The notes under the pieces are model-generated. The model searched no databases, was not told the DNA's origin, and saw nothing but the letters and a program-made list of their open reading frames with translations. DNA of 64,000 nt from Gordonibacter massiliensis (ex Traore et al. 2017) (GTDB taxonomy: Bacteria; Actinomycetota; Coriobacteriia; Coriobacteriales; Eggerthellaceae), in NCBI GenBank assembly GCA_900170005.1, contig LT827128.1:1116001-1180000 (forward strand). Direction: 5' to 3'. Position numbers and translations under genes: made by a program. This document shows, piece after piece, positions 40,777 through 57,857 of this stretch (within the stretch, counting starts at the first letter, position 1; each line of letters opens with the position of its first letter).

Positions 40777-43700
40777 CTATGCCTTCTCGATTTTGAACAT
40801 GCCGCCGCAGCGTCCCGGGCTCGCCGCGTCGTTCTCGGCGATGATGCTGATGACGTCGTCGCCGGTCACGCCCGTGACGGTGGGGTCGAGCATCTGGTGG
40901 ATGCGCACGCCGGCCGCGACGGCCGGATCGCCCTTGGTCACCGCGCCGTCCACCTCGATGTCCTGGGCGCCGTAGTTCTGGTGCCCGTAGCCGAACGCGA
41001 GGGCGAACGCGCCCTTCGTCTGGCCGGCGCGCACCATGGCGATGCCCTCGCTCACGTCGCCGAGCGGCGTGGTGGCGCGAACCTTGTCGCCGTCCTTGAT
41101 GCCGAGGGCGGCCGCGTCCTCGCGGTTGAGCTCGATGTAGTTGTGGCTGCACAGATCCCGCATGACGGGGCTGTTCGACAGCATGGATATCGAGCGGAAG
41201 CGGGGCTTGTGCTCGGAGGCCCCGAACGGGTACTCCTCGCGCGAGAAATGGTCGGTCATGGGCGAGAGGTCGGTGAACGTCTCGGGGTTGTAGCCGAACA
41301 CGCCCGGCAGGCGCTTGCCCGAGTAGCAGTTCTTGTTCAGCGCGCGCTTCTCGCTGTAGTAGTACGTCTGGTTCTCCTTCTCGAAGCCGCGGCTGCGGCG
41401 CCCGTCGGCGTCGTGCACGTAGGACATGGGCCAGTAGCGCCCGCCGCGCGAGAGCACGTTGAGCACCTTGGGCCACTCCTCGGCGGTGACGGCCGCTTTG
41501 AAGCTTTCGGGCAGCTCGTCGAGGGCCTGGACGCGCATCTCCTCGTCGGAGATGTCGGCCACCGGCTCTTCGGCGTACGCGAGGTTCGCGACCGCCTTCA
41601 GGTAGAAGTCGCAGGCGTCGCGCAGGGGCCACGCCTTGCCGTCGGCGTCCTTGATGGCGTTCTCACCCCAACCGGGCAGCTCGCACGCCTGGGCCACGTC
41701 GGCCAGGAACGTCTCCCAGCTGGCATGGCGGCCGTCGTCGAGCAGCATGCTCTCCGGCTCCTTCACCTGCCAGCGCACGGTGGTGCCGTAGCCGGTGAAC
41801 GTGGTGCCCGTGGTGGGCAGGCCGAAGCTCTCGTAGGGAGTCACATCGGGCACGATGTAGTCGGCGTACTGGGCATGCTCGCCCACGAAGACGTCGCACA
41901 CGATGTGCAGCGGCAGCACCTCGGGATCGCACAGGCGCTCCACGACCTCGTCGCGCATGGCGCCCGGCGTGGCCTGCAGCGTGTTGCACATGAAGGAGGT
42001 GAGGATCTTCGCCTGGTAGGGATAGCGGTTCACGATGGAGAGCAGCGCCTGGCTGTCGGACGCCGCGCCGTTGCCGAACCAGGGCATGAGCGGCTTGGGA
42101 TCCTTCTCGCCCGCCGCCACGCGATTCTTGTACTCGTCGGTCTTCTCCCACGCCTTCACCGTGCGCGAAATGTAGGTGGCGTTCTTGGTGGAGACGTCGG
42201 GCTTGCCGGCGATGGTGCCCAGCTTGTAGCGCGCGCCGTTGCCCGCCGTGGTGGGAGCCGGGCTGTTGGGGGCGTTGCCGCCGATCATCTGGTTCGCGCC
42301 GATGATGGCGTGCAGCACCGCCGCGCCCATGACCGTGTCGATGCCGTTGACCGAAGCGGCCGAGCCGCCCTTGTGGCAGATGCCCGCGCGCGTGCCGTGG
42401 GAGGTGTACTCCTTGGCTATGCGCTCCAAATCCTCCACGGACACGCCGGTGATCTCGGAGTACTCCTCCATGGTGTACTCGTTGACCGAGTCCTTGAGCA
42501 GCGAGAAGCCGGTGCGCACCTTCACGCCGTTCACTTCGCCCTCGAACTCGAGCGCGCCCTTGCCGCACGCGGAGTGCACGGCGGGCTGGCCCGTGGCGGC
42601 GTCGATGACGACGAACTGGTCGAGCGCCTTGCCGTCCTTGTCCTTCTCCTCGGGCGCGTCGATGCCGGCGTCGGCAGCGCGCATGAGCTTGAGGTGGTTG
42701 GGATGGCCCTCGTCGACGATGACGAGGTACGTGGCGTTCGTGTAGGCGCCGTAGCCGCCTGCGACGGCCGCCTTCTGCGTGGTGAACGAGAGGGCGTCGG
42801 CGTCGTAGGTCTTGTCCGCGATGATCTTCTGCACGAGGGCCGCGCAGAAGGCCGCGTTCGTGGCCGGCTTGATGGGTATCCAGTTGATGCCCGGGATGGT
42901 GGGCGTGACCGAGCCGTTGGCCAGCGTGCAGTCGATGACGTCGATCTTCAGCTTGCCGGCGGCCAGGTTCGCGAGCGTGCGCTTGCCGGAGCTTTGGAAG
43001 TTGATCATGCTGCCGCCGGGGAAGGCGCCCAGCCAGATTGCGTATTCGGCCTCTTCGGGTTCAGGTGTGAGGCCGTTATCACCTTTTGATGCCAGCGAAC
43101 TCGCTGAGTTGGCGACCGCTCAACTGCTGGCGTGCCCGTAGGCGTTGATCGTGCCGAACGTCGAGGCGAAGCGGCTCGAGAAGTTGCCGCGGCCGTCGGA
43201 ACGGCTTCCCAGCATGATCAGCTGGTTGGACACGGGGCCGAGGCTCGGCTCTTCGGGGTTCATGGGCGTTTCGGTGTCGTGCAGCGCCTTGAAGCCCATG
43301 ATGTCGCGGTCCTCTCCGATGTCGGCGAACAGCTTGCCGCCCTCGGTGACCTCTTTGATAAGCTGGTCCCAGCCGATGGCCTTCCACTTGCCCTCGCCGC
43401 GCTTGCCGGCGCGCTTGAGGGGCGCGGTGATGCGGTCGGGCTGGGTGTAGCCGTCGAGCGTGCCGTTGCCGCGCCCGCACACCGTGCCGCGCAGCAGGTT
43501 GCCTTTGCCGTTGGCGTAGCTGAGCGACTGGTAGGCCTCCGTGAGCGGCGCCTCGAAATCGAGGAACGGGTACGCGTCGGCCGGGTTGTAGGGGTTGCCC
43601 CCCACGCCCAGCACGCTGCCCGTTTCCCGGTCGAGCTTCACGCGGTTTCCGCACGAGCAGTAGCAGCCCACGCAGCCGGAATAGCGCACGACCACGTCCT

Positions 43701-43896
43701 CGTTGACGGCCACCTCCCCCGTCTTGGGGTCGACGCTCGCCTCGACGGGCTTGCCCTTGGCGGGCGCCGGGAACGCGGACTCCGCAGCCACGGCGGCCGT
43801 GGGCTGGGTCCCGAGGGTCGCTCCCGCAACCGTCAAGGCGCCGAGCGCCCCCATCGCCTCGACGAACGTTCGCCGGTCGATGTTTTTCGATCCCAT
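40777..43896 (-). CDS. Molybdopterin oxidoreductase with probable selenocysteine ligand
   Basis: A periplasm-side catalytic subunit of the DMSO-reductase superfamily, 1039 codons including one in-frame TGA at 43120-43122 (codon 259). The ATG at 43896 follows AAGGAGGAGG. The N-terminus has a Tat signal (RRTFVEAMG), then the [4Fe-4S] pattern CVGCYCSC with a later Cys in GTVCGRGNG. Before the TGA stands FGTINAYGHASS, which matches the PsrA/PhsA-type run FGSPNTFSHAST-Cys; the TGA is exactly the Mo-ligand position. The frame then continues intact for 780 codons (EEAEYAIWLGAFPGGSMINF, C-terminal MopB domain). Read as selenocysteine; a nonsense mutation is the alternative. Substrate unknown; tetrathionate, polysulfide or an organic oxide are possible. 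Confidence 0.82.
43093..43106 (-). promoter_or_regulatory. bSECIS-like apical hairpin after the in-frame TGA
   Basis: Minus-strand CAGCG-AGUU-CGCUG is a 5-bp stem with a 4-nt loop. The loop starts 18 nt after the UGA and has G in its second position. Published bacterial SECIS models require an upper stem of at least about 4 bp, a loop with G in its first two positions, and 16-37 nt from UGA to loop. A lower GCC/GGC pairing is possible. Confidence 0.6.
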
Positions 43897-43979
43897 ACTC
43901 TCCTCCTCCTTCGTTGTAGCGATCGAACACAACGGTTGGTAAGTCTAGGCGGGAGGAAGCGCCGCTTCATCACCTGAAC

Positions 43980-50502: not shown

Positions 50503-50517
50503 ATCCTAAAAAGCCGC

Positions 50518-50537
50518 CGGCGCGGATTCCCGCGCCG
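50518..50537 (+). terminator. Terminator hairpin of the small membrane-protein gene
   Basis: CGGCGCGG-ATTC-CCGCGCCG, 15 nt after the stop. No T-run. Confidence 0.65.
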
Positions 50538-50552
50538 CGGCCGTCAGCGACC

Positions 50553-50602
50553 GGTTCGCGAGCGACCAAAGCGCGGTCCATCGGCTTGCCCGCTCGCGAA
50601 CC
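50553..50602. terminator. Inverted repeat between convergent genes
   Basis: GGTTCGCGAGCG (50553-50564) and CGCTCGCGAACC (50591-50602) are perfect 12-bp arms just past the stop of the LuxR gene on the minus strand, so it may end both convergent transcripts. Confidence 0.55.
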
Positions 50603-50616
50603 GCTTCCTGCCGACC

Positions 50617-52122
50617 CTACGCCGGGAGCACCGGGGAATCGGCATCTTCAACGTAGGCTTCCACGAAGTCGATGACCTTCTGCTGGGTGTGGATGTCCAG
50701 CTTGGTGTACACGTGGTACATGTGGGTTTTCACCGTGTACGGAGACAGGACCAGCTTGTCGCGGATATAGGCCGCGTTCCTTCCCTTGGCCATGAGGGAG
50801 AGAACCTCCGTCTCGCGGGCGGACAGCCCGAACCGGCGGGCGATGAGCGCGATGCGGCGTTGGAACGCCTCGTCCTCGCTCGGCCTATCCGCCGCAGCCG
50901 GCTTCCCCCCAGCCTGTTCGGCAGCTTGCGGGCCCTCCGCTTTCAGGTGGTGGTTGTCGACCGGGAAGAACACCATCACCACCAGCACCAGCACGATCAC
51001 CATGGCGAGGAACAGCAGCGTGAACTCTCCGGCACCGACGCCGTACAGAACCGTGAAGCCCGCCGCCAGGGCCCATCCTGCCGCGAAACCGGACGCGGCG
51101 AAGATGACCCTCTGAGGAAGCTGGCGGAACACCGGCACGTCGTATTCCAGCATGCCCTTCTTGACCATGTGCTCGTAGTTCACGGACAGGAACGCCGCCC
51201 ATGATGCGACGACGCAGCAGGCGCAAACCGGTTTCACCCCTTCGGGCACGAAGGGGTACACGACGCAGGTGACTACGTCCGCCGCCAGAAGCAGGCGCTG
51301 AAACACCACGATGTTGGTCTTCACGCCCAGGCAATCGAACACCAGAACCAGCAACGCGCCCGCCATCGCGCTGGCCAAGCCGAGGAACAAGACGAGCATC
51401 TCCTCGTTCGCCAGCACGCAGAAGCCCAGGCCGAACACCATGTTGAACGTGACGAGCGACGGCTCGATCTCGCGCACGTTCTGACGCGTCCACGTGTCGA
51501 CGGGCGGATGGCTTGCCCGGGGGCGGCTCTTCACCTCGTCGCGCGAGGCGACGAAGTGCAGCAACCCGACGGAAGCCAACCCGAAAACGGCGCTGAAGGC
51601 CGCTTGGGCGGCAAGGGGCAAGAAGGTGACCGACGCGAACAGCGCGCATCCGCTCAAAACGCCGAGGGAGTAGAACCACGCCAGGCGCTCGCAGCGGAAA
51701 AGCGAGGGCGCATCGAGCCAGCCGTTGGTGACGAAGGCGGCGCCGACGCCCGCCAGGAAGCAGGCCGCGGCCTGGATCGGAGCAGAGGGGATCGTGCCGC
51801 ATGCGACGCAGAGCGCCGTCGCCGGGACGAGCGCCAGGCACGCCGCGTCGAACAAAAGGACGGCGGGGCGATACGGGCTGAAGCGCGGGCTTTTGGCCAG
51901 CATCCACTGACCGGCATAGCCCGCCGCAAGCCCCAGGAACGCGAACAGCTGGACGACGCCGCGCAACCCGGCGTCCCCTTCCCTTCCAGCCGCTTCGAAC
52001 GAAACGGGCACGAGCCAATAGAAGGCGCAGAACATCCACGCGAAGAAAAGCCCGCATCCGCAAAGAGCGAGGAGTTCCAAGGAGCTGATCTGCTGTTTCG
52101 AAACAGTCACATCGCCGCGCAC
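50617..52122 (-). CDS. Membrane-bound LuxR-type regulator of the second molybdoenzyme cluster
   Basis: A 501-aa protein with about twelve hydrophobic helices and a C-terminal LuxR domain (FGLSARETEVLSLMAKGRNA, LVLSPYTVKTHMYHVYTKLDIHT). It has the same architecture as the regulator at 44143-45648 but is clearly divergent. A GTG at 52122 is chosen because GGGAGG lies 7 nt upstream; a TTG two codons earlier is too close. It stands at the downstream end of the transporter and molybdoenzyme genes, all on one strand. Confidence 0.87.
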   Translation of the reverse strand: MRGDVTVSKQQISSLELLALCGCGLFFAWMFCAFYWLVPVSFEAAGREGDAGLRGVVQLFAFLGLAAGYAGQWMLAKSPRFSPYRPAVLLFDAACLALVPATALCVACGTIPSAPIQAAACFLAGVGAAFVTNGWLDAPSLFRCERLAWFYSLGVLSGCALFASVTFLPLAAQAAFSAVFGLASVGLLHFVASRDEVKSRPRASHPPVDTWTRQNVREIEPSLVTFNMVFGLGFCVLANEEMLVLFLGLASAMAGALLVLVFDCLGVKTNIVVFQRLLLAADVVTCVVYPFVPEGVKPVCACCVVASWAAFLSVNYEHMVKKGMLEYDVPVFRQLPQRVIFAASGFAAGWALAAGFTVLYGVGAGEFTLLFLAMVIVLVLVVMVFFPVDNHHLKAEGPQAAEQAGGKPAAADRPSEDEAFQRRIALIARRFGLSARETEVLSLMAKGRNAAYIRDKLVLSPYTVKTHMYHVYTKLDIHTQQKVIDFVEAYVEDADSPVLPA

Positions 52123-52357
52123 GTCCAACCCTCCCGTAGCAAGAGCATTCGCGACCGCGATTCGAACCCCCGGCTTGCCCCCTCGAGGGATCTCGTCAAA
52201 ACAAATACCGCGGCGTTCGAAGCGAACAAGCTGATTCTACTACAGAAGAGACCGTCCACGTTCCGTCTATTTCAAAGAACTCCCTGCTTATGCACGAGAA
52301 AGCAAGGAAATCGGAGGGGCTTTGCCGGCGGCGTCCCGCCTCCCGAAGGCGATAGCC

Positions 52358-52383
52358 GGGGGGCGCGGTCGCCCGCGCCCCCC
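52358..52383 (-). terminator. Terminator hairpin of the molybdoenzyme cluster
   Basis: GGGGGGCGCG (52358-52367) pairs with CGCGCCCCCC (52374-52383), 16 nt past the MFS stop. It separates that operon from the LuxR gene. Confidence 0.7.
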
Positions 52384-52399
52384 TACCTTGCGCGCCGCT

Positions 52400-53836
52400 T
52401 CAAGCGCGGGCGCCATCTCCTTCAAAAGCTTCGACGTCATCCGAAGGCGCACCGCGCCCTTCGTCCTCGTCGAACACCGGCGGCTTCGTGGCCACGTAGA
52501 CGATCCAGCAAACCAGGCCGCACACCGCCGTGACCGCGCACAGCGGCGCCACGTTCGTCCACACCTGGGCCTCGCCGATGACGTAGCCCACGACCGGCGT
52601 GCACAGCAGGTTCGAGATGCCCTGGAAGAAGATGATGATGGCCATGCCGATGGGCATGGTGACGCGCTTGGGCATGGTCACGGGCACCATCGACCACACC
52701 ACCCCGCTCGTCCAGCCGCTCTCCAGACCCAGGAGCACCAGGTAATAGGGCAGGTACTCGTAGGGAATCAAGAAGGCGCCGATGTAGAAGAACGCGCACA
52801 GCGCCGCTATGATCACCATGACGTTGCGCGACTTGATGGTCTGGAACTTCCCCAGCAGAAACGCCGTCACCAGCGCCATGGGGATGGAGGCCGCGAAGCC
52901 GAGCGAGGCCATCGAGCCTCCCGCGACCCCGGCCTGCGCCTGGGCCGCCGCCATGTCCATCCCGCCCGCCACCATCTTGCTCAATTCGATCTCCTGCACG
53001 TAGCTGGGCACCCACGTGAGCACCGAGAGCGACGTGAACATGAGGAAGCAGAAGCCCAGGCCGAACAGCCACATGCGCTTGACCTTGAACCCTTCCAAGA
53101 GGATGGAGGCCGGGCGATGGGCGGGCCGGCCCGTCTCGCGCTCCTTCTTCGCGGCGATGCCGCGCCCTGCGTGGGGCACGCTCACGAACAGCGCGAACAC
53201 CACGAACGCCACGAGGGCGAGCACGTCGGAGAACCACCACCACGCGTGCCAGTTGTGCGGGTCTCCCGTGAGGGCCAGGGCCACGGGCACGCCGATGTTG
53301 TAGGCCAGCGTCGAGCCCACGACGTACCAGAGGTTCCAGATGCCCATGGGAAGGCCGGCCTTCTCGCGGGGGAAGTACATGGAGATGACGGTGGTGGCCA
53401 CCACGCCCATCATGGCCACGCCGATGCCCTCCAGCAAACGGCCGACGATGAGCTGGGCGAAGGAGGTCGCGGGCGCGCCGACCGCGCACCCGACCACCAT
53501 GAAGGCCAGCCCGAACAGGCCTATGCGCTTCGGGCCGAAGCGGTTGAGCAGGAACGCCGACGGGAAGGCGGTGACGATGCCGGCGACGGCGATGACCGAC
53601 ATGAGCCAGCCGGTGGTGCCGGGGTCGGTGTGGAAGTCGTTCATGAGCGCGCCCATGAACGTGGGAACCTTGAACTGGTTCATGATGACGATGATGCCGC
53701 AGAACAGCATGGCGAACAGCACGATCCAGCCCTTGCGCTGGAGGCTCCGCGCCTCGTCGGACGCGGGCGGCCGCCCACTCGGGCCGGTATCGGCAGGATC
53801 GGGTGTTTTAAGGGTGCTCGAATCGGTATTGCTCAT
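52400..53836 (-). CDS. MFS transporter of the second molybdoenzyme cluster
   Basis: A 478-aa permease with about twelve helices. The loop LNRFGPKRIGL after helix 2 and SMYFPREKAGLPMGIWN are typical of anion or organic-acid symporters. The N-terminal 30 residues are soluble. It probably imports the substrate or exports the product of the adjacent molybdoenzyme. The start ATG lies 72 bp after the small Cys-rich gene. Confidence 0.85.
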   Translation of the reverse strand: MSNTDSSTLKTPDPADTGPSGRPPASDEARSLQRKGWIVLFAMLFCGIIVIMNQFKVPTFMGALMNDFHTDPGTTGWLMSVIAVAGIVTAFPSAFLLNRFGPKRIGLFGLAFMVVGCAVGAPATSFAQLIVGRLLEGIGVAMMGVVATTVISMYFPREKAGLPMGIWNLWYVVGSTLAYNIGVPVALALTGDPHNWHAWWWFSDVLALVAFVVFALFVSVPHAGRGIAAKKERETGRPAHRPASILLEGFKVKRMWLFGLGFCFLMFTSLSVLTWVPSYVQEIELSKMVAGGMDMAAAQAQAGVAGGSMASLGFAASIPMALVTAFLLGKFQTIKSRNVMVIIAALCAFFYIGAFLIPYEYLPYYLVLLGLESGWTSGVVWSMVPVTMPKRVTMPIGMAIIIFFQGISNLLCTPVVGYVIGEAQVWTNVAPLCAVTAVCGLVCWIVYVATKPPVFDEDEGRGAPSDDVEAFEGDGARA

Positions 53837-53908
53837 AACGGATCCTTTCTCCTCGCACGGTGCGGGGATACAGGCGGATTTGCCGGATGCGAATGCGAGG
53901 GAACGGCA

Positions 53909-54265
53909 TCACGCACCGGGCGGCACTTGGCGCACTTCCCATTTCATCGGATCGCACGGCGGGGTTCCGCAGCCGCAGCCGCAGCGAACCGTTTGAGCCA
54001 CCACCTTGTCCCAGTAATTGCGATCCGTCTGATAGACCAGCTGAATCTCGTCGAGCGTTCCCGTGATGGTGTGCCACCATTCCATGCTCGGACCGTAATG
54101 GCTGAACCTGCCGTCGGTGGCAGGCTGGTTGCACACGGTGCAGTAGATCTCGACCGCGCCCTCCCCTTCGGGCTTGGGCCTCGCCGAATGCCTCAGCGCT
54201 TGCGCTTGGTCCGGCGGAACGGACGGGGCGGGTACGATCACCCCAACATCCTCCTTGCTGATCAT
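53909..54265 (-). CDS. Small Cys-rich protein of the second molybdoenzyme cluster
   Basis: A 118-aa protein. It has CTVCNQPATDGRF in the middle and RCGCGCGTPPCD near the C-terminus, two Cys groups that could bind zinc or an iron-sulfur cluster. No signal or membrane segment. The ATG at 54265 overlaps the zinc-ribbon stop by 4 nt and has AAAGGAG 10 nt upstream. I do not recognise the family; maturation or electron transfer for the molybdoenzyme is a guess. Confidence 0.68.
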   Translation of the reverse strand: MISKEDVGVIVPAPSVPPDQAQALRHSARPKPEGEGAVEIYCTVCNQPATDGRFSHYGPSMEWWHTITGTLDEIQLVYQTDRNYWDKVVAQTVRCGCGCGTPPCDPMKWEVRQVPPGA

Positions 54266-54489
54266 GTCGATCGATCTCCTTTCCGAGAACTCCCCTTGGG
54301 CAGGAACGGAAGCGCCATCTTGGCGCCGGGGGCCTGCGGGATGGCCGCGCCGCAGCGTTCGCACCGAAGCGCGTCGGCGTCGTTCTCGAAACCGCAGCGA
54401 ACGCACCGGCCGAGGACGTTCAGGGGGCGAGGAGCCACCTTCCCGCATCTGCCGCACTGCACGCACACCCTGGTATAGCCTCCGCACAC
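54262..54489 (-). CDS. Small double zinc-ribbon protein
   Basis: A 75-aa protein with CVQCGRCGK, CVRCGF and CERCGA, that is at least two rubredoxin-like or zinc-ribbon knuckles. A GTG start at 54489 has GGGG 7 nt upstream. It overlaps the next gene by 4 nt. Function unknown; its place between the ferredoxin and the Cys-rich gene links it to the molybdoenzyme. Confidence 0.7.
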   Translation of the reverse strand: MCGGYTRVCVQCGRCGKVAPRPLNVLGRCVRCGFENDADALRCERCGAAIPQAPGAKMALPFLPKGSSRKGDRST

Positions 54490-54553
54490 GAGCGCACCCC
54501 GTCCCTTTCAATCGAGAACAGAAGGGATATCAAAAGCATCGTCGGAGCGTTTC

Positions 54554-54584
54554 CGTAGGGCAAGGGCAGAGCCCTTGCCCTACG
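54554..54584. repeat. Perfect 14-bp hairpin repeat, family C copy 1
   Basis: CGTAGGGCAAGGGC and GCCCTTGCCCTACG around AGA. The left arm recurs at 57777-57790. It lies between the ferredoxin and zinc-ribbon genes and may lower expression of the downstream genes. Confidence 0.7.
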
Positions 54585-54647
54585 ATACGATGCCGAGAAC
54601 GCGCCTTTCGACAGCCTTGATACCCCTCCCTGCCAACGAGCCGTATC

Positions 54648-55007
54648 CTAGTCGGTGCAACCGGCCTTGGGCACGAACAGGACGTGCTTCGTCTTGGCCG
54701 AGGCGATCTTCGCCGCCAGCTCGTCAACCGCGCCGTACTCGATGACCAGCGCCTGGCAGTGCTTCGCGCACGTCGGCTTCTGACCCTTCTCCAAACGACC
54801 GGCGCACAGATCGCACTCGTCGGTGGGGATGGGCACCATGTCGTTTTGCCAGCGCTTGCCGTCGATCTTCCACGGACCGGTGCAGGACAGCTTGATGCCG
54901 AAGCGGCCGAGCGGTATGCCGTGCTCTACCGAGCAGGCCATCTCGCACGCACGGCATCCCGTGCAGTATTCGTAGTTGATCAGAAGCCCGCATGCCTTCT
55001 CAGCCAT
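54648..55007 (-). CDS. Ferredoxin-like small subunit of the second molybdoenzyme
   Basis: A 119-aa iron-sulfur protein. CTGCRACEMAC near the N-terminus and CDLCAGRLEKGQKPTCAKHC near the middle give ligands for two [4Fe-4S] clusters; the two groups typical of longer four-cluster subunits are absent. It begins 2 nt after the catalytic gene. It should carry electrons to the molybdenum subunit. Confidence 0.9.
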   Translation of the reverse strand: MAEKACGLLINYEYCTGCRACEMACSVEHGIPLGRFGIKLSCTGPWKIDGKRWQNDMVPIPTDECDLCAGRLEKGQKPTCAKHCQALVIEYGAVDELAAKIASAKTKHVLFVPKAGCTD

Positions 55008-55009
55008 CG

Positions 55010-57421
55010 CTATGCCTCCCTTTCCGCTTCGTAGGTAAAGTTACGGAAGCTGCCCTCGGCGAATCGATCCTTGGGGTCGGCGGCCGTAGGCAAAGGGATC
55101 TCCTGAGGCTCGCAGGGGTACACCTTGCACATGAAGCACTTGCACTGGTCGCCGAAGCCCGTGTCGCCGCAACCGGCCGGAACCACTTCGTTGATGTTGG
55201 TCGCGTAGGTGGCGAAGCAGCCTTCGCCCTGGTCTTCGGGGTCGGCCTCGGGGAACCACCAGGCATGGTCGGCCTGCACGACGCGCGCGTCGATGATGGG
55301 CGTGATGTGCGCCGTCAGGCGCGCGCGTCCCACGGGGCTCTCCAGCCAGCACCACTGGCCCTCTTTGATGCCCAAGTCGGCTGCCGCCTCGGGGTTGATC
55401 TCGAACCACGGGTCGGGATGCATGGCGCGCAAGCGGTCCATCTGGCGATGCTCGGAATGGAACGACGCGTAATGGCGGGCGCCGGTGGTCAGGATGAACG
55501 GGTACTCCTCGACCAGCTCGGGCCGGCTGACGGGGCTCATGGGCGGCTCGTGGTAAGACGGCAACGGCGCCTGCCCCCACTGCTGCAGCAAGAGCGAGTA
55601 CAACTCCACGCGGCCCGTGATGGTGTTGAAACCGGGCTGGTGGTCGGGGCGCTGCTCGCCGGTGCGGTACTTCTGGTAGTGGAACTCGGGGTAGACCCAG
55701 TTGGCCTTGCGGCTCTCGTCATAGGTGAGGTTGGCTTCCTTGATGAGGTGGCTGAAGTAGTCTTCCAGCGTGTCGCCCGGCCACAGGTCCTTGTTCCAGC
55801 GACGGCCCAGCTCCCAGTTGATCTGGAAATCGTCCTTCGCCTCGCCGAGCGGCTCGCAGGCCTTGTTCGTGTTCTGGATGTAGTACCACACCGAGCGCAG
55901 GCCCTCGCGCTCAGGATAGAAGCACAGCGGCAGCACGATGTCAGCGCAGGCCATGGCGGTGGGCGTCATGAAGCACTCGACGCACACGACGATCTCGCAG
56001 TTCTTCAAGCCCTTCTCGATGCGGTTCTTCGGCTCTTGGCCGCAGCAGGCCAAGGGGTTGGTGGACTGCAGCCATGCGCCGCGCACCTTGTAGGGGCGTC
56101 CGGTGATCAGCTGGTCCACCATGGTGTCGGCTTGGCATTGGACCATGCCGGAGTTCGTTATCATCTCGTACACGCTGCCGATGCGCTGCTTCTCCTCTTC
56201 GGGGGTGAAAACCTCCTTGGGGTCGGGAGGCAGCCACACCTCGGTGTTGTACGGATCGTGAACGGTTATCATGCCGCCCGGGATGTCGATCTGGCCGGTG
56301 ATGGACCACAGGTTGACGACCGCCTGGGAAGCGTTGATGCACTGGAGGTTCATATCGATGGCCAGGCCCCACTGCACGCACGACGGCTTCTGCGCCATGC
56401 GTTCGGCCGCCTCGACGATGTCCTCCTTCGAAAGCCAGGTGATCTCGGAGGCGGTGTCGAGGTCGTAGGGCTTGCAGGCCTCGTAGTACTCCTCGAAGCC
56501 GTAGCACCAGCTTTCGACGAACTCGTGGTCGTACAGATCGTTCTCGATGATGTACTTGCCCATGGCCAGGGCCAGCATGGAGTCGGTGCCCGGTCGGATC
56601 TGCAGCCACAGGTCGGCCTTGGTGCCGAGCCACGTGGCGCGCGGATCGACCACGATAAGCTGCGAGCCGCGCTTCATGCAGTCGACGACCCAGTGGCCCA
56701 GGTTGCCGTCGGCGTTGGCCACCAGCGGGTTGTTTCCCCACACGAAGATGTTCTTCGGCGCGACCCATTCCGGGTTGTCGTAGCGGTCGGGGAACTGCAT
56801 GGAGAAGTCAGGGCAGGTGTAGCAGCCCATGATGGTGTTGGAGGCGGCCACGCGCGGCACGTAACAGGCGTTGCCCGAGAGGAAGTACGAGTACTGGATG
56901 GAGCCGAACGCGTACCCGAGGCGCGCGTTGATAGGCGGCGTCACGCGGCCGGTGCCCGACGCGAATATGATCGACTTGCCGCCGGACTCCTCGCGGATCT
57001 TCGTGAACTCGCGGTCGATGGTGTCGTACGCCTCGTCCCAGCTGATGCGCTTGAACGCGTCGGCCTTGCCGCGGTCCTTGCGATCGCGGATCATGGGGTA
57101 CAGCAGGCGGTCGGGATGGTAGATGGCCTCCGCCACGTCCAGGCAGCGCGAGCACAGGCGCCCTTGGTAGTACGGGTTCTCTTCGTCGCCCTCGACCTTA
57201 ACGAACTTGCCCGTCTCCTTGTCGGTGTAGATGACGACGCCGCAGCCGTCATGGCACCCCGGCGCCGACCAGGCAGCCGAACGGGTGCACACCATGCCGT
57301 CCTCTTCCCACTGCCACGGAACGTCTCCCCCGGTGTACATGACCGGCGGCTCGTTGAAGAAGGTGGGGCGAACTTCCTTCGTCGCGTCGCTGTCATGAGT
57401 TATGTCAACTTTAAGCGTCAC
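55010..57421 (-). CDS. Acetylene-hydratase/catechol-dehydroxylase-like molybdopterin enzyme
   Basis: An 803-aa DMSO-reductase-superfamily enzyme without Tat signal, so probably cytoplasmic. N-terminal Cys45, Cys56, Cys60 and Cys90 (VCTRSAAWSAPGCHDGC and RLCSRC) should bind [4Fe-4S], with an unusual ten-residue gap between the first two. The Mo ligand is probably Cys186 in SGNACYVPR. MGD-binding strands include FVWGNNPLVANADG, VVDPRATW and the C-terminal ILTTGARHYASFHSEHRQ. The overall sequence resembles acetylene hydratase and the catechol dehydroxylases of gut Eggerthellaceae. The GTG start at 57421 has GAGGAA upstream. Substrate unknown, perhaps a dietary or host phenol. Confidence 0.85.
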   Translation of the reverse strand: MTLKVDITHDSDATKEVRPTFFNEPPVMYTGGDVPWQWEEDGMVCTRSAAWSAPGCHDGCGVVIYTDKETGKFVKVEGDEENPYYQGRLCSRCLDVAEAIYHPDRLLYPMIRDRKDRGKADAFKRISWDEAYDTIDREFTKIREESGGKSIIFASGTGRVTPPINARLGYAFGSIQYSYFLSGNACYVPRVAASNTIMGCYTCPDFSMQFPDRYDNPEWVAPKNIFVWGNNPLVANADGNLGHWVVDCMKRGSQLIVVDPRATWLGTKADLWLQIRPGTDSMLALAMGKYIIENDLYDHEFVESWCYGFEEYYEACKPYDLDTASEITWLSKEDIVEAAERMAQKPSCVQWGLAIDMNLQCINASQAVVNLWSITGQIDIPGGMITVHDPYNTEVWLPPDPKEVFTPEEEKQRIGSVYEMITNSGMVQCQADTMVDQLITGRPYKVRGAWLQSTNPLACCGQEPKNRIEKGLKNCEIVVCVECFMTPTAMACADIVLPLCFYPEREGLRSVWYYIQNTNKACEPLGEAKDDFQINWELGRRWNKDLWPGDTLEDYFSHLIKEANLTYDESRKANWVYPEFHYQKYRTGEQRPDHQPGFNTITGRVELYSLLLQQWGQAPLPSYHEPPMSPVSRPELVEEYPFILTTGARHYASFHSEHRQMDRLRAMHPDPWFEINPEAAADLGIKEGQWCWLESPVGRARLTAHITPIIDARVVQADHAWWFPEADPEDQGEGCFATYATNINEVVPAGCGDTGFGDQCKCFMCKVYPCEPQEIPLPTAADPKDRFAEGSFRNFTYEAEREA

Positions 57422-57857
57422 TGTTCCTCACTCCCTGTCCTAATACGATCCGTTGTTTGCATCGAGTCGTTTGCGCGGCGTCCGATCCGCTCCCCCTCCT
57501 TTCTCAGCTGCTACGATTCGGAAACCGGCTTTATGTTCGCAAAGAGGCAGGGGTGCCGGTAATCGACCCAATTTAGACTTTTTGAAGAATAAATATTTTG
57601 CTGCGAGGCACGGCAAGCCGTTTCATACCGATTTACTACCGGACCAGCCAGTTCATCCTGAAGTTACTACCGCCGACTTGGCCTAAACGGCGTATAATAA
57701 ATGGTTCACGTGTGCATGTGCGCAATGCGCGAGAAGCGCGAAGACGCTTGCGGCAAAAGAGCCTTTTCGGCAGCGCCGTAGGGCAAGGGCTCTGCCCGTG
57801 CCGCCTTGCATGGGGGCTCGGGCCGTCCCAGAAGGCGCGGCTATCCGTCGGAACCCC
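57422..57857. other. Upstream region of the second molybdoenzyme operon
   Basis: About 436 bp without a supported gene. It is AT-rich around 57560-57720, with TATAAT on the plus strand near 57695 and AAATATTTATTC on the minus strand near 57590. It should hold the molybdoenzyme promoter and the activator site. A degenerate family C repeat is at 57777-57805. Confidence 0.5.
57777..57805. repeat. Family C hairpin repeat, copy 2 (degenerate)
   Basis: CGTAGGGCAAGGGC is identical to the left arm of copy 1; the right arm GCCCGTGCCGCC has diverged, so the stem is shorter. Confidence 0.5.

Follow-up and report, generated by a model that had tools for sequence, protein, structure and literature searches.

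Ellagic acid is supplied by berries and nuts. Human urolithin metabotypes have been explained by genus: Gordonibacter forms urolithin C, which becomes urolithin A with Enterocloster (metabotype A), and Ellagibacter forms isourolithin A (metabotype B) (PMC9999415). For Gordonibacter sp. 28C, G. pamelaeae and G. urolithinfaciens, urolithin C is the reported end point, whereas Ellagibacter reportedly proceeds to isourolithin A (PMC12771579; PMC9999415); for G. faecis, the title of a report states production of urolithin C. The step from urolithin C to isourolithin A is catalyzed by Eadh3, an 'additional' molybdoenzyme that was purified and assayed in 2025 (Bae et al. 2025; PMC12771579). Among catechol dehydroxylases, a Gordonibacter type, exemplified by Dodh, is distinguished from the larger, three-subunit Eggerthella type of Dadh, Hcdh and Cadh (PMC11887054). 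Here we analyze a six-gene cluster in a 64,000-nucleotide stretch of the Gordonibacter massiliensis genome (contig LT827128.1, positions 1,116,001 to 1,180,000; hereafter the window). Comparison with the Ellagibacter system indicates that the locus is likely a stand-alone Eadh3 module acting on urolithin C to give isourolithin A. The literature searched contained no account of Eadh3 in a Gordonibacter.

Gene content and enzyme class

Six co-directional genes on the minus strand, at 50617-57421, encode a molybdoenzyme, a ferredoxin, a zinc-ribbon protein (denoted ZnR), a Cys-rich protein (denoted CysR), an MFS transporter and a membrane LuxR. The features of the locus are as follows.

50506..57856, no strand: whole module, the interval swapped for other DNA in Gordonibacter sp. 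28C
57633..57672, minus strand: direct repeat CGGTAGTAA, two copies at 31-bp spacing that lie upstream of the enzyme gene and form a candidate activator site
55010..57421, minus strand: predicted catalytic subunit of an Eadh3-type catechol dehydroxylase, 803 amino acids (aa), GTG start; from domains, trees and motifs
54648..55007, minus strand: electron-transfer subunit (ferredoxin), 119 aa; from two [4Fe-4S] motifs and ortholog identity
54262..54489, minus strand: ZnR, small zinc-ribbon protein; from CxxCxxC plus CxxC...CxxC and recurrence of the family
53909..54265, minus strand: CysR, 118-aa Cys-rich protein conserved with Eadh3-type modules
52400..53836, minus strand: MFS transporter (MFS_1), 88% identical to the one encoded in its own genome's ellagic-acid (eam) cluster
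50617..52128, minus strand: membrane LuxR-type regulator with a GerE/LuxR helix-turn-helix (HTH); closest to the eam LuxR (42%) among the proteins of its genome

The ferredoxin gene lies downstream of the enzyme gene across a gap of 2 bp, and the 3' end of the ZnR gene overlaps the CysR gene by 4 bp; this spacing suggests a single operon. Antisense open reading frames (ORFs) are long in the GC-rich DNA of the window, for example 856 aa at 54992-57562 on the plus strand, so that ORF length by itself is weak proof of coding. What establishes the minus-strand reading is a set of orthologs of ~80% identity, in which enzyme, ferredoxin, ZnR and CysR follow one another in this order as far as each contig extends.

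The enzyme contains Molybdopterin, Molydop_binding and Fe4S4 domains (Pfam/NCBIfam) and a [4Fe-4S] motif formed by C56/C60/C90/C93, and its catalytic motifs are kept; judging from near-invariance and position, C186 is the probable Mo ligand. No twin-arginine motif occurs in the first 40 residues of the enzyme, which is signal-less. The ferredoxin matches Fer4 and carries two four-Cys sets, C15/18/21/25 and C65/68/80/84. Features typical of the Gordonibacter type are present, namely a cytoplasmic catalytic subunit of the DMSO-reductase family of ~770-800 aa and an adjoining small Fe-S partner, and those of the Eggerthella type (twin-arginine signal, large catalytic subunit, membrane anchor) are absent from the window enzyme. 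More than 30 related cytosolic paralogs are encoded in this genome, in agreement with published paralog counts for Gordonibacter. On sequence criteria this is a catechol-dehydroxylase locus, not an orphan. A previous sequence-only reading had named the same six genes on one strand, which coordinates and Pfam/NCBIfam domains corroborate, and had described a signal-less, catechol-dehydroxylase-type molybdoenzyme with a ferredoxin, a transporter and a membrane LuxR, in agreement with domains and trees. Three of the comparators that it proposed (Dadh, Hcdh and Cadh) are wrong for this enzyme because they represent the larger, three-subunit Eggerthella type.

Orthology with the probable Ellagibacter Eadh3 and the proposed pathway

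A scan of named genomes yielded about ten full-length relatives of the enzyme with 76-81% identity, including one from Ellagibacter isourolithinifaciens DSM 104140 (contig_001, ~56.9-59.3 kb), encoded about 8 kb from the gene for Eah, the decarboxylase of ellagic acid. The eam region of Ellagibacter contains exactly three such molybdoenzymes, two of which are 91-92% identical to the Gordonibacter eam pair (Eadh1 and Eadh2). Because these two are accounted for, we infer that the remaining enzyme, to which the window enzyme is orthologous, is Eadh3, an assignment by elimination rather than by a locus-tag match. The window enzyme and this third enzyme share 80% identity, which exceeds the homologue threshold of 75% applied in PMC11887054. 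In a tree of 138 molybdoenzymes both fall in one clade (SH support 1.0), and a 58-sequence IQ-TREE phylogeny recovers the same Eadh3-type clade (ultrafast bootstrap, UFBoot, 100), with the window enzyme nested among dehydroxylases; placement with arsenate or formate families, the outcome that the sequence-only reading had set against itself, was not seen. Eadh1 and Eadh2, which together with Eadh3 are the characterized dehydroxylases that the trees place by name, belong to a larger group shared with the window enzyme and Eadh3; the trees contain no acetylene hydratase sequence. The Eadh3-type clade is marked by 23 clade-specific invariant residues, and the window ferredoxin is 69-77% identical to the ferredoxins of Eadh3 orthologs. 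With an ortholog purified and assayed in 2025 (PMC12771579), the label 'uncharacterised' given to the cluster by the sequence-only reading no longer applies. A second group of relatives, with about 60% identity, is found in G. pamelaeae and Raoultibacter; this group (L032, L080, L078) forms a sister clade of Eadh3 and resides in dehydroxylase-dense regions without CysR.

The window MFS has a single paralog in the genome, 88% identical and located inside the eam cluster. Four other Gordonibacter genomes have one copy of this type each, near Eah, and none was found in Ellagibacter. Searching the genome with the window LuxR gave 55 matches (self included), with the eam LuxR at 372 bits and the next at 92 bits. 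The protein has a C-terminal LuxR HTH, and crude hydropathy analysis yields 9 segments, compared with the 10-12 transmembrane (TM) segments of the regulator class. In Ellagibacter and the other animal-gut genomes, different types of LuxR and MFS protein are encoded next to Eadh3. From these comparisons, the core enzyme-ferredoxin-ZnR-CysR is conserved while transporter and regulator vary, being eam-like in the window locus. Induction through the membrane LuxR is plausible, and the CGGTAGTAA direct repeat is perhaps its activator site. An operator common to the module and eam promoters was considered and rejected, as the CGGTAGTAA repeats occur in the module only; they are retained as a local candidate.

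In the proposed pathway, Eah would open and decarboxylate ellagic acid, and Eadh1 and Eadh2 would dehydroxylate the product twice to urolithin C. These steps are predicted for the eam cluster of the same genome, which encodes Eah together with orthologs of Eadh1/2 and is located at about 717-737 kb, a distance of 435 kb from the module. Urolithin C would then enter the cytoplasm, with the module MFS as candidate importer. There, the two-cluster ferredoxin would reduce the 803-aa enzyme, which, with its predicted molybdenum bis-molybdopterin guanine dinucleotide (Mo-bis-MGD) cofactor, would strip the catecholic C8-OH of urolithin C to yield isourolithin A. The membrane LuxR is related to the eam LuxR; it probably responds to a catechol derived from ellagic acid and would then activate the module, perhaps via the CGGTAGTAA repeat. 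The sequences themselves show the enzyme class, its orthology with the Ellagibacter eam enzyme, the relatedness of MFS and LuxR to their eam counterparts, the eam genes in this genome and the lack of the module in four other Gordonibacter genomes; substrate, regiochemistry, induction and transport we infer. This Gordonibacter probably makes isourolithin A, which Gordonibacter as a genus is not known to form. If so, a Gordonibacter that combines Eah and Eadh1/2 with an Eadh3-type module would break the genus rule, metabotype would track an accessory module rather than the genus, and the four core module genes could serve as a marker for isourolithin A capacity in metagenomes.

Across 138 Eggerthellaceae genomes, CysR, taken as the module marker, is present in 11 and Eah in 18, with both in 8; Eah accordingly occurs in 8 of the 11 marker genomes versus 10 of the 127 others (Fisher p 2e-6, kinship ignored), and in three genomes the two share a contig. 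CysR was not found in four other Gordonibacter genomes examined, leaving the module in one of five. Several observations weigh against the Eadh3 assignment: the module is unlinked to the eam cluster in this genome; three genomes (G104, G142 and G150) carry the module marker with no Eah detected; the Eadh3 gene was identified by elimination; and identity between the window enzyme and its Ellagibacter counterpart is 80%, whereas Eadh1/2 reach 91-92% across these two genera. As to linkage, a position within eam is a feature of the Ellagibacter locus and not part of what makes an enzyme Eadh3. The three genomes possibly come from bacteria that use urolithin C produced by other organisms; alternatively, they may reflect assembly gaps.

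The lower identity, together with the precedent of (+)-Eldh1 and (+)-Eldh2, which are 74% identical and differ in site selectivity (PMC11887054), makes a shift in regiochemistry or substrate possible. The enzyme might thus remain in the pathway and act on a urolithin, with a different preferred substrate or position (urolithin M6, urolithin D or a different catecholic OH). Eadh3 itself takes several C8-OH compounds, and the C3-dehydroxylated urolithins are still without an enzyme. We nevertheless consider such a shift unlikely, given that the window enzyme clusters with Ellagibacter Eadh3, shares the 23 clade-specific invariant residues and is accompanied by the same two accessory proteins. 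That the substrate is 'another dietary or host aromatic', as the sequence-only reading had proposed, would fit the more than 30 related paralogs, mostly without a known substrate, and the frequent substrate specificity of dehydroxylases. This appears quite improbable, however, because enzyme, transporter and regulator each independently point to ellagic-acid clusters and metabolism, and CysR co-occurs with Eah. A module that is non-functional, or that is not expressed together with the eam genes, would produce no isourolithin A; its presence in just one of five Gordonibacter genomes would be compatible with this, but all module frames are intact, ribosome-binding-like sites precede most genes and the catalytic motifs are kept, which renders it very improbable. 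The chance that the enzyme is an acetylene hydratase, formate dehydrogenase or arsenate reductase is negligible: its best solved-structure match is indeed acetylene hydratase (254.7 bits), as expected because catechol dehydroxylases as a group have acetylene hydratase as nearest relative (PMC7028382), but it is nested inside the dehydroxylases and scores far under the curated NCBIfam cut-offs for formate dehydrogenase (260 versus 666 bits), arsenate reductase (ArrA; 74 versus 1600 bits), thiosulfate reductase (PhsA; 196 versus 694 bits) and, likewise, DmsA.

Accessory proteins and chromosomal setting

Beyond the Eadh3 assignment, the locus highlights two conserved small proteins, ZnR and CysR, which accompany the Eadh3-type enzyme in all cases for which there is sequence downstream of its gene. 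CysR proteins from different genera share 63-72% identity and a core of high conservation; in the loci examined, CysR was found only in Eadh3-type modules and beside no other dehydroxylase. It matches no Pfam family past weak chance hits; its best PDB profile match is an unrelated LysM protein (E 0.021), and its AlphaFold model (predicted local distance difference test, pLDDT, 71) gave no significant Foldseek match. ZnR matches Zn_Ribbon_1 at 22.5 bits, under the 25-bit cut-off of that family. Its family consists of small proteins that carry CxxCxxC and two CxxC motifs and recur near cytosolic dehydroxylase genes: of the 14 best matches in the genome, 12 lie within 6 kb of such a gene. A genome-wide rotation test of this clustering (15 of 5000) is weaker than the raw counts suggest because dehydroxylase loci are themselves clustered. 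Members of the ZnR-like family are ~60-80 aa long, with examples in G000 at 332831-333125, 273544-273738 and 2143032-2143220, the first interval holding two convergent, overlapping copies. The literature, as far as it was covered, yielded no mention of ZnR or CysR. Any role for them in maturation or electron transfer is conjecture. Tentatively, and with rather less than even confidence, we propose that ZnR and CysR are dedicated subunits or maturation factors of Eadh3-type enzymes and that ZnR-like proteins serve many Gordonibacter-type dehydroxylases. If true, Gordonibacter-type dehydroxylases would not be the two-subunit systems of current descriptions.

The boundaries of the module were set where synteny with Gordonibacter sp. 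28C breaks: the two genomes are colinear up to 50505 and again from 57857, with different DNA in between. By this comparison, the module occupies a variable chromosomal site. The corresponding slot of 28C (L177, 7777-10011) holds other cargo, a GntR-regulator-like ORF plus a 390-aa ORF. A REP-like palindromic element, GTAGGGCAAGGGC...GCCCTTGCCCTAC, occurs at two sites of the module (54553-54584 and 57776-57802) and also near other dehydroxylase genes of the genome (L042, L043 and L054).

Elsewhere in the window, an exported TtrA-type, tetrathionate-reductase-like molybdoenzyme (40777-43926, minus strand) contains an in-frame TGA at 43120-43122. The codon lies in the context GHASS*AVANS, the apparent Mo-ligand position, and is conserved in the orthologs (91-92% identity) from two other Gordonibacter genomes (L178 and L179); a neighbouring paralog has Cys at this position. 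The TGA probably encodes selenocysteine.

Comparison with described dehydroxylase systems

Dadh, El Hcdh and Cadh belong to the same superfamily and reaction class as the window enzyme but are larger (El Hcdh 1193 aa), exported by the twin-arginine route and composed of three subunits including a membrane anchor. Their regulators DadR, HcdR and CadR (PMC9734109) resemble the window LuxR in the multi-TM N-terminus, the C-terminal LuxR HTH and the dehydroxylase neighbour, whereas by sequence the window LuxR belongs to the eam LuxR group (35-42%). Dodh, Gp Hcdh, Gs Vadh and Eldh (PMC7028382, PMC11585353, PMC11887054) likewise consist of a cytoplasmic catalytic subunit (Gp Hcdh 770 aa) and a small Fe-S subunit, with a transporter or regulator nearby as in the module; their substrates differ. 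Eadh1 and Eadh2 of the Gordonibacter sp. 28C eam cluster (PMC12771579) share class, predicted pathway and similar MFS and LuxR proteins with the module, but the enzymes are 43% identical to that of the window and act at C4 and C10, and no ZnR or CysR was found adjoining them.

The closest described counterpart is Eadh3 of E. isourolithinifaciens DSM 104140 (PMC12771579), which shares the clade, 80% identity, the core enzyme-ferredoxin-ZnR-CysR and the cytoplasmic location. The window module differs from it in its distance of 435 kb from eam, a different MFS (25% identical) and a different LuxR type. Taken together, what is new here is an Eadh3-type enzyme in a new arrangement, its own chromosomal slot, and in a new genus; the kind of enzyme was already known.

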